DNA of 64,000 nucleotides from an uncultured Flavobacteriales bacterium (GTDB lineage Bacteria > Bacteroidota > Bacteroidia > Flavobacteriales_D > Sanyastnellaceae). The notes below the pieces were generated by a model that searched no databases, was not told the DNA's origin, and saw nothing but the letters and a program-made list of their open reading frames with translations. Of the stretch, positions 30,517 through 33,995 are shown in pieces (the first letter of the stretch is position 1; each line of letters opens with the position of its first letter). The stretch lies in contig CALSMK010000005.1 of assembly GCA_943787435.1 (NCBI GenBank), forward strand, positions 1 through 64,000. The letters are read 5' to 3'. Position numbers and translations under genes: made by a program.

Positions 30517-31014
30517 TCAAGCTTCTGTCTCCAGTTGGCCCAAATCGCGGTCGAACAAGTAGAGGCCTGCTGAGTCAGAGCCAATCATGGCCAGTTTGTC
30601 CATAATTGTTCTGGCCAAAGCTTCTTCTTCAATTTGCTCAGCGACATACCACTGCATGAAGTTGTGTGTGGTGTAATCCTTGCGCGACAGGCAGAGGTCC
30701 ACCACCTCATTGATGCTGGCGGTGACTTTGGTTTCGTGATCTAAGAGTGTGGTGAAAATGTCCTGAAGACCAGAAAAGCTGGCTTGAGGTGCATCGAGTG
30801 CTGGGATCTTGGCTGTCCCTCCGCGCTCATTCACGAATCGAATCAGTTTGAGCATATGCTCGCGTTCTTCATCGCTGTGCTTGTATAGAAAGGCTGAGGT
30901 GCCATTGAGCCCCGTGGTCTCAGCCCAAGAGGCCATGGCAAGGTAAAAATGAGAGGAGAGAGCCTCCATTTCGATTTGGGCGTTGAGTGCGCCTTCAATG
31001 TGGGTGTCGAGCAT
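30517..31014 (-). CDS. Ferritin
   Basis: LNAQIEMEALSSHFYLAMASWAETTGLNGTSAFLYKHSDEEREHMLKLIRFVNERGG; FMQWYVAEQIEEEALART. Confidence 0.93.
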   Translation of the reverse strand: MLDTHIEGALNAQIEMEALSSHFYLAMASWAETTGLNGTSAFLYKHSDEEREHMLKLIRFVNERGGTAKIPALDAPQASFSGLQDIFTTLLDHETKVTASINEVVDLCLSRKDYTTHNFMQWYVAEQIEEEALARTIMDKLAMIGSDSAGLYLFDRDLGQLETEA

Positions 31015-31018
31015 AAAA

Positions 31019-31036
31019 TTTCAGATAAAAATGAAA
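31019..31036. promoter_or_regulatory. Palindromic operator-like site upstream of ferritin
   Basis: TTTCAGATAAAAATGAAA; same TTTCA-N8-TGAAA architecture, 4 bp from the ferritin ATG. Confidence 0.6.
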
Positions 31037-31113
31037 TGATTCAGTTGATGTATTTTGTATCCAAGTATTGAAGGTCAATGAGTTATATTGTTGACTAAAA
31101 TATGGATATGATG

Positions 31114-31560
31114 TTAGAGTGGGGTTGATGACTTATGCAATCCGCCAAGGGCGAAAAGGGTGTTGAACCAATGTAAATCTCCCTTTCCTGAGATGGTTGA
31201 AACCGCAGCCCGCATTTCGAGAAGGGGAAGCACTGTTTTTTGTTCAAGGTGCGACTGAAGTGCGACATGGACTTCATCTGGATTGCGAATCGCTGTGAAT
31301 TTCTCATGTCGTTCTCCTAAGATTTTGAGTCGTTCCACCAGGCCGGCAGAATGGAGGATCCCAAGCTGGGTGCTGACGCCTCCTCGGCTGATGTCGAGGG
31401 TGCCTATGATTTCATCTGATGTCAAGGCTGTGGGGTGGGCGAGCAAAAGTGCGTGTATCCTGCCTGCTGTTTTTGTAAAGCCCCAAGCCTTCAAGACGGG
31501 TGGCCAGTGTCTCAGCAGGTAATTGGCCGCCGCAGAAAATTCGCTGAATTCCTCATCCAT
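31114..31560 (-). CDS. GbsR/MarR-family winged-helix transcriptional regulator
   Basis: WGFTKTAGRIHALLLAHPTALTSDEIIGTLDISRGGVSTQLGILHSAGLVERLKILGERHEKFTA. Confidence 0.82.
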   Translation of the reverse strand: MDEEFSEFSAAANYLLRHWPPVLKAWGFTKTAGRIHALLLAHPTALTSDEIIGTLDISRGGVSTQLGILHSAGLVERLKILGERHEKFTAIRNPDEVHVALQSHLEQKTVLPLLEMRAAVSTISGKGDLHWFNTLFALGGLHKSSTPL

Positions 31561-31563
31561 ACC

Positions 31564-31571
31564 CAAAAGTA
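31564..31571 (-). promoter_or_regulatory. Putative -7 element (TACTTTTG) of the GbsR-like gene
   Basis: Exact TAnnTTTG match, 3 nt before the ATG. Confidence 0.55.
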
Positions 31572-31589
31572 TTTCATTAATAAATGAAA
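31572..31589. promoter_or_regulatory. Palindromic operator-like site upstream of the GbsR-like regulator
   Basis: TTTCATTAATAAATGAAA; arms TTTCA/TGAAA with 8-nt spacer; abuts a TACTTTTG element on the minus strand, 12 bp from the ATG. Confidence 0.65.
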
Positions 31590-31595
31590 CAGAAA

Positions 31596-32600
31596 TTAGA
31601 ATTTTAATCTATTGGGGTCAACAAGAACAGGGGTTTCTGAGGCACCTTCTATTTGGTCGGCTAAATTTTGTGCCCATTTGGGGCCAATCAAGACCCCCCT
31701 TGTTCCAAGGCCATTGAAGACAAACCATCCAGGTCGACCGGGCATCGGTCCCACGATGGGTCTGCGGTCTCGCGACACGGGGCGCAATCCCACTTGGTGA
31801 AGTATTGTCTTCAGTTTCGATGGGGATTCCAGTTCTGACTCAAGCGCGTCATGCAGGAAGGCCGCCGTTTCTGGTGTGGATGCGAAGTCTTCTCTGTGCC
31901 ATTCATAGCTGGCCCCCAGTCGCCAAAGGTTCGGCGCAATGGGCAGGGTCCATTTTCCAAAATTGAGGATGAGGTCTTGGGGAACAGGGCTTGCGTGGGA
32001 TTCTGAATCGTGCCCTACGGTGAGGATTTCTCCTCGGTTGGCCCGAAGGTCTAAGGGAATGCCTGCCGGGGCATCTCTCATGGCCAAGCCTCGGCAGTCT
32101 ACCACAACGTCCCATTCGGTGGCGCTTTCTGACACATCGAAGGTCCGCTTCTCAAACCGTCCGGAGTCGTTCAAATGTTCGCGCCAGAGGGGAATCAAGG
32201 ATTGAAGGTTCACCCATCCACCTCCTGTGACTGTGCCATAATTGGCCTCGCCATCCTGGAATTGTACTGGAGAAATCCAAGGACAATCAGCGCACTTCTC
32301 ATTCCAAATGGCCGCATAGTCGGCATTGGCGAGTCTTTTGCGAATGGAAAGGGGGTGAAGAAAGGGCGCGTCCAAAATGGCCGAGAAATCGTCCATGGTG
32401 GCCTTGAGTGCATCCAGATGAGCTTGCGCATCCCAAACCTCAACAACCCGCCGAAAGGACATGGGGTTGAACATGCCGGCTGCCACAGAGGAGGCTGAGG
32501 GCAACCCCGCGTCGATCACATGGCAATCCCAACCCCTTTGAAGGGCCACATGGCTAAACAAAGTGCCCGCCAAGCCTTGGCCAATGACAAGGACACGCAT
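31596..32600 (-). CDS. FAD-dependent oxidoreductase (DAO family)
   Basis: MRVLVIGQGLAGTLFSHVALQRGWDCHVIDAG dinucleotide-binding fold; GLRPVSRDRRPIVGPMPGRPGWFVFNGLGTRGVLIGP. Confidence 0.8.
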   Translation of the reverse strand: MRVLVIGQGLAGTLFSHVALQRGWDCHVIDAGLPSASSVAAGMFNPMSFRRVVEVWDAQAHLDALKATMDDFSAILDAPFLHPLSIRKRLANADYAAIWNEKCADCPWISPVQFQDGEANYGTVTGGGWVNLQSLIPLWREHLNDSGRFEKRTFDVSESATEWDVVVDCRGLAMRDAPAGIPLDLRANRGEILTVGHDSESHASPVPQDLILNFGKWTLPIAPNLWRLGASYEWHREDFASTPETAAFLHDALESELESPSKLKTILHQVGLRPVSRDRRPIVGPMPGRPGWFVFNGLGTRGVLIGPKWAQNLADQIEGASETPVLVDPNRLKF

Positions 32601-32602
32601 GG

Positions 32603-33808
32603 TTAGGCTGTGGCGGCCACCACGCCCAACTCACGCCCCACCTTTTCAAAAGCAGCGAGGGCTTGGTCCAAGTGCTCTTGGGTGTGAGCGGCACTCAGTT
32701 GAACGCGAATTCGGGCTTGTCCTTTGGGGACCACAGGGTAGAAAAAGCCAATCACATATATGCCCTCTGCAAGCAGAGCATCGGCCATGGTTTGGCTCAA
32801 TCGGGCATCTCCGAGCATCACCGGCACAATGGCGCTTTCACCGTCTTTGAAGTCCAGTCCGATTCGGGTCAAACCCGCTTTGAAATAGCGGGTGTTTTCT
32901 TCGAGTTGATCTCGAAGTGCGGTGGTCTCGTCCAGCATTTTAAAGACCTCCAAGCTGGCGCCAACAATGCTGGGAGCCAGAGAGTTGCTGAACAGGTATG
33001 GCCGACTTCGTTGACGGAGCATCTCGATGATTTCGGCACGGCCCGTCGTGAACCCGCCCATGGCACCACCGAGGGCTTTGCCCAAGGTTCCGGTGATGAT
33101 GTCCACCCTGCCCAAGGCGTCACGCAGTTCTATGGAGCCCCGGCCTGTCTTTCCAATGAAGCCCGTGGCGTGGCATTCGTCCACCATCACCAAAGCGTCG
33201 TAGGCATCTGCGAGGTCACAAATCTTGCCGATTTGCGCCACATAACCGTCCATGGAAAACACCCCGTCGGTCACAATCACTTTGAACCGATGGCCCGCTT
33301 CGTTGGCGGCTTGCAGTTGTTTTTCGAGGTCCGCCATGTCATTGTTGGCATACCGATACCGGGCTGCTTTGCACAGCCGAACTCCATCGATGATGGACGC
33401 ATGATTCAAGGAGTCCGAGATGATGGCATCCTCTTTGGTCAGAAGCGGCTCAAAGACCCCGCCGTTGGCGTCAAATGCTGCAGCATACAGAATGGTGTCT
33501 TCCGTATGGTGGAATTTCGCAATCGTGCTTTCTAACGCCTTGTGAATGTCTTGGGTTCCGCAAATGAACCGCACGGAGGACATGCCGAAACCTCGGTCAT
33601 CAATGGCTTTTTTCGCGGCATTCACCACCCTGGGGTGGGAGGAGAGGCCCAAATAGTTGTTGCCACAAAAATTCAAGACCTCGCTTCCATCATCCAATCG
33701 GATGACGGCATCTTGGACCGATGCGATGACCCGTTCTTTTTTGAACAGTCCATCTTCTTGAATCGAATCGAGTTCGGCCCTCAAGTGGCCCTTTATTTTG
33801 CCGTACAT
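32603..33808 (-). CDS. kbl: Glycine C-acetyltransferase (2-amino-3-ketobutyrate CoA ligase)
   Basis: [75 protein letters not shown]. Confidence 0.93.
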
Positions 33809-33812
33809 GCCA

Positions 33813-33820
33813 CGAAGATA
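33813..33820 (-). promoter_or_regulatory. Putative -7 element (TATCTTCG) of kbl
   Basis: TATCTTCG-TGGC-ATG. Confidence 0.5.
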
Positions 33821-33995
33821 GCCGCCTCGGTTTGGCAAAGAAGTGAGACTGGAGCCCTCAAGAATCCATGGGTTCGGAGGCGAATGGAGCCATCGAGATC
33901 TGAAAAAGCAACCAAGGCTTGAGTGGTTGGGAGTTGGCCTGCATTTTCTGAGCGCATCCATGATGCGCCACACGAGGCTTCCGGCACGGCTGAAT

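Follow-up and report, generated by a model that had tools for sequence, protein, structure and literature searches.

A GbsR-type regulator encoded in the window (the whole 64-kb stretch of DNA that was analysed) is likely to bind two copies of the palindrome TTTCA-N8-TGAAA, to repress its own gene from one copy and to control the next gene, here a ferritin gene, from the other. The two copies look like a real and functional operator pair of a GbsR-type autoregulator. In the proposed mechanism a dimer of the regulator would bind the AT-rich palindromes. At operator 1, which overlaps the putative promoter of the regulator, the bound protein would block RNA polymerase and so cause autorepression, and at operator 2, where the next gene begins, it would control that gene by occluding a promoter or by acting as a roadblock. 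Since the next gene in this genus encodes ferritin, ferritin output would be tied to the regulator's own inducer.

The Locus and Its Two Palindromes

The genes on the minus strand follow the order kbl, DAO-type oxidoreductase, regulator, ferritin, and a YfiR/HmsC-like gene (Table 1). The kbl gene is listed from an early GTG codon and its true start is probably later; the oxidoreductase gene ends 6 bp from operator 1. For the regulator, the ATG at 31560-31558 is probably a better start than the listed TTG at 31566. The ferritin matches PF00210 over its full length (137 bits against a gathering score of 24.5, profile positions 3-141 of 142), and its residues 2-156 align with the bacterial ferritin 3bve.

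Table 1. Coordinates of the regulator-ferritin locus in the window
Feature	Position	Strand	Basis or location
kbl, glycine C-acetyltransferase (context gene)	32603..33973	-	TIGR01822, 683 bits, residues 61-452
DAO-type FAD oxidoreductase (context gene upstream of operator 1)	31596..32600	-	PF01266
Operator 1, TTTCATTAATAAATGAAA	31572..31589		gap between oxidoreductase stop and regulator start
Putative -7 promoter element (TAnnTTTG) of the regulator, TACTTTTG	31564..31571	-	abuts operator 1
GbsR-type winged-helix regulator, 150 aa as listed	31114..31566	-	profile and structure matches
Operator 2, TTTCAGATAAAAATGAAA	31019..31036		4 bp ahead of ferritin start codon
Ferritin, 165 aa, FtnA-like	30517..31014	-	PF00210, 3bve alignment

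An earlier, sequence-only reading of this DNA reported two palindromes with identical arms and spacing, the second of them 4 bp from the ferritin start, and direct inspection of the window reproduces both exactly, with the arms TTTCA and TGAAA and 8-bp spacers. Two copies of the pattern are observed in the window against 0.12 expected, and none of 100 shuffles of the window yielded two. The motif is not frequent in the source draft genome either (2.12 Mb, 78.5% complete), where the arm pattern has five copies versus one for the reversed control pattern. The remaining three copies are internal to long reading frames, and their spacers contain G/C; when an A/T-only spacer is required and up to one mismatch is allowed, operators 1 and 2 are the sole matches in the genome. 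No TTTCA-N8-TGAAA site accompanies the second ferritin-family gene of the same genome, on contig C16. A regulon extending beyond the regulator locus is unsupported, the other matches in this genome being inside coding frames. The genomes of 10 further class members each have 0-5 copies of the pattern with an A/T spacer, and in most of these genomes one copy sits at the regulator. A variant with GGG in the spacer, TTTCAAGGGATTTTGAAA, is shared by seven genomes of the genus at places other than the regulator locus (for example, G001:C7:35001 and G012:C44:28334) and is perhaps a conserved coding stretch.

Conservation of the Operator in Bacteroidia

The regulator was searched for in 60 related genomes and in two sets of 299 genomes each, one from the order and one from the phylum, and the 84 best-scoring non-redundant loci were read, 82 of them with an evaluable upstream stretch. 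An exact palindrome lies just upstream of the regulator in 76/82 loci (80/82 with one mismatch), counts that do not amount to a p-value because the loci are phylogenetically related and were the best-scoring ones. The conservation at orthologous regulator loci that the earlier reading called for is thus found across the class. Chance formation in AT-rich DNA would suit the AT-rich gaps in which both palindromes of the window sit, but all 19 control palindromes of the same letters scored zero in the 82 loci, and spacers of 2-7 or 9-14 bp were found in 0-1 loci; we count this explanation, with its negligible probability, as already refuted.

Regulators that share the operator have as little as 22-30% identity to the window protein. 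The columns flanking the arms extend the dyad symmetry, giving the class-wide consensus AAACTTTCA-N8-TGAAAGTTT, a 26-bp operator. A second copy of the palindrome is present within 600 bp past the regulator stop in 56/83 loci, mostly 15-23 bp past the stop. In most of the more distant superfamily members the site is missing. The putative binding site of the regulator is very probably this palindrome. At two loci (L029 and L032) a small lipoprotein-like protein is encoded divergently on the 5' side of the regulator, and the one at L032 matches the heavy-metal-associated (HMA) domain.

The Regulator Protein

The assignment to a GbsR/MarR-like family made from the sequence is confirmed, as a GbsR/MJ223-type fold, by profile comparison and predicted structure. 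Pfam MarR_2 matches the regulator weakly. The nearest solved structure is the archaeal protein MJ223 (PDB 1ku9), the usual template for GbsR-type proteins (PMC6207618), which is both the top match of a profile built from class members (E 9e-24) and the best PDB match of the AlphaFold monomer model (pLDDT 90). As in MJ223, the model has an N-terminal winged helix-turn-helix and a C-terminal helical dimerisation region. The regulator is expected to work as a dimer, and the palindromic operator fits a dimeric regulator. Tryptophans W19 and W26 are invariant among the regulators. In the region of the recognition helix the own-genus proteins differ from the class consensus, yet their operator is unchanged, which speaks against the proposed binding. 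The sequence has no cysteine, which makes thiol-based redox sensing unlikely.

Orthology with the choline regulator CudC (NCBIfam NF047500) is rejected, as the regulator scores 20.5 bits against a curated cut-off of 218; class members reach at most E 8e-18 with this profile. The gene context of the osmostress group (GbsR, OpuAR, OpcR, and YvaV), with genes for glycine betaine synthesis or Opu transport alongside, is likewise not found here, the neighbours being kbl, the DAO-type oxidoreductase, and ferritin.

Promoter Geometry at the Two Sites

The TAnnTTTG element noticed in the sequence-only reading does abut operator 1 on the minus strand, and the same arrangement, a palindrome directly abutting a TAnnTTTG-like box, recurs at the same-genus loci. 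The consensus TAnnTT[TC]G is the -7 box of the Bacteroidetes sigma-A, positioned from -12 to -5 (PMC9723704). From this box the ATG of the regulator is predicted to lie at most 1 nt from the transcription start, which could leave the transcript with almost no leader. Among loci outside the genus, TAnnTT[TC]G is located 15-17 bp past site 1 in 37 of 64 and is rare in the rest of the stretch scanned. Given the promoter spacing between the -33 element and the sigma-A -7 box, this distance puts the right arm of the palindrome, with its TTTG-like end, at -33. In either geometry, abutting the box or overlapping -33, the bound protein would cover the core promoter, and the apparent overlap of site 1 with the promoter fits autorepression. 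Repression is the default reading, since each of the four GbsR-type proteins with a functional characterisation is a repressor (PMC6207618).

At site 2 the picture is different in that no sigma-A -7 box was found nearby in 55/56 loci, so the ferritin promoter is not located. Site 2 is 1-4 nt from the next start codon in a large part of the own family; in other families the distance is mostly 16-46 nt. Site 2 is best read as a roadblock or an intra-operon operator, and a promoter of another type at this site is possible. Across the class, at loci L021-L032 and L089-L143, an A7 or T7 tract stands right after the regulator stop, 8-11 nt ahead of site 2; no sigma-A -7 box was found near the tract, which was not seen in the window's genus and is possibly part of another promoter type.

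Because site 2 ends so close to the start codon in the own genus, the element might instead act in RNA, as a stem-loop that exerts translational control. This is extremely unlikely, as the arms are invariant, the few one-mismatch cases (ATTCA, CTTCA, and TGAAT) are uncompensated, and site 1 outside the genus occupies the -33 region, ahead of where transcription is predicted to start.

Ferritin as a Probable Lineage-Specific Target

The earlier reading also suggested checking whether the motif is conserved upstream of orthologous regulator-ferritin pairs. At ferritin it is kept in 14 of the 15 same-genus genomes that have the regulator (9 exact sites, 5 with one mismatch), where the site ends 1-4 nt before the ferritin start. 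The regulators of these genomes fall to 34-38% identity with that of the window, and the persistence of site 2 despite this divergence implies selection. The ferritin-proximal site is absent from the fifteenth genome, G015. This genome contains two near-identical regulator-ferritin loci on two contigs (L010 and L034), a result of duplication or of assembly redundancy; in L034 another reading frame separates the regulator from ferritin.

Relatives without a detected regulator provide the complementary comparison. Twenty such genomes were considered; 13 have ferritin, 12 of them with a readable upstream region. A site within 60 bp of ferritin occurs in none of these 12 versus 14/20 relatives with the regulator; under a loose criterion (760 bp, one mismatch) the numbers are 2/12 and 19/20, with a Fisher p = 1e-5 that is indicative only, the genomes being related. 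In 8 of the 12 regulator-less relatives the oxidoreductase is immediately ahead of ferritin, with kbl visible in seven, which argues for a true absence of the regulator from this position and against an assembly gap. At loci L179-L182 ferritin directly follows the regulator without a site of its own, as in a simple operon. Thus the site goes with the regulator gene and not with ferritin.

Ferritin in other bacteria is commonly under the control of regulators that respond to iron or peroxide, and the palindromes could in principle be sites of another DNA-binding protein, such as an iron or stress regulator of the Fur or OxyR type, with the GbsR-type protein a mere neighbour. However, the site stands upstream of the regulators even where the next gene is not ferritin, is absent near ferritin once the regulator is gone, and is not spread over an iron regulon, and we regard this explanation as very unlikely. 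Ferritin is, as the comparison of related genomes suggests, a lineage-specific target of the GbsR-type regulator.

In loci outside the genus, the genes behind site 2 encode an SDR with an epimerase Pfam match (which we take to be TIGR01777), DCC1-like proteins, DUF2071 proteins, small membrane proteins, or methyltransferases, and the link to ferritin therefore does not imply iron-sensing. A set composed of DUF2071, DCC1-like, SDR, and small SRPBCC-like proteins recurs behind the regulator in other Bacteroidia, at loci L184, L185, L186, and L187. Within the own family ferritin is often found just behind genes of the kinds that site 2 precedes elsewhere (G028, G022, and G018), and in another family this was seen once (L108). 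In the simplest history, this genus would have lost the intervening genes, and site 2 would thereby have come to abut ferritin.

The same history leaves room for a regulator that binds both palindromes but activates ferritin, or that mainly regulates itself, site 2 being a remnant of the lost ancestral downstream genes with little effect on ferritin. Such a role is compatible with the position of site 2 ahead of other genes outside the genus, with the ferritin that lacks its own site at L179-L182, and with the missing -7 box near site 2. Against it stand the retention of site 2 at the ferritin start in all but one of the same-genus genomes, across strongly diverged regulators, and the uniform repressor function of the studied GbsR-type proteins, and we consider it rather unlikely. 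Repression of the regulator's own gene together with control of ferritin remains our preferred reading. The original proposal, that the regulator represses itself and ferritin, is accordingly upheld by site conservation, by the absence of the site without the regulator, and by the fold, while we infer binding and repression themselves from comparison and promoter geometry. The proposed iron-storage control holds as a target in this lineage but not as the general role of the family, which has other genes behind site 2 elsewhere.

A broader interpretation is possible but doubtful: a Bacteroidia-wide GbsR subfamily with the 26-bp operator might sense an envelope-, lipid-, or metal-related signal, and gene loss might have rewired it onto ferritin here, creating a new kind of ferritin switch outside the iron and peroxide regulators.

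Comparison with Known Systems

The GbsR-type family and its regulatory logic are already known. In the openly licensed literature we did not find a GbsR operator of this form, its class-wide conservation, or a link to ferritin, and in a 2018 survey of the family the gene neighbourhoods of Bacteroidetes members gave no consistent picture of the regulated process (PMC6207618). The conserved operator and its candidate target genes provide, for the Bacteroidetes GbsR group, a specific binding site that can be tested throughout a class. The ferritin case suggests how the loss of intervening genes can bring iron storage under a local regulator.

CydE of Alishewanella, a repressor of cydAB with sulfate as the inducer, provides a precedent for GbsR-type repression outside osmoprotection (PMC6207618); its target and phylum are different, and there is no sign of cyd genes beside the window regulator. 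The predicted mode of action also has precedents in Bacillus subtilis, where GbsR, bound to operators past the start site, forms a roadblock and OpcR blocks the -35 region (PMC7396694). The latter resembles what we propose for site 1 outside the genus, although OpcR controls choline uptake genes. The closest parallel is B. subtilis GbsR itself, the choline-sensing repressor of gbsAB and opuB, which shares with our regulator the winged-helix superfamily, the MJ223-like fold, an AT-rich inverted-repeat operator near the start of the controlled genes, and local targets (PMC7396694). In contrast to the GbsR half-sites, which are 4 bp apart, 8 bp separate TTTCA and TGAAA here, and in place of osmoprotectant genes the predicted targets are ferritin or an SDR/DCC1-like/membrane-protein operon.
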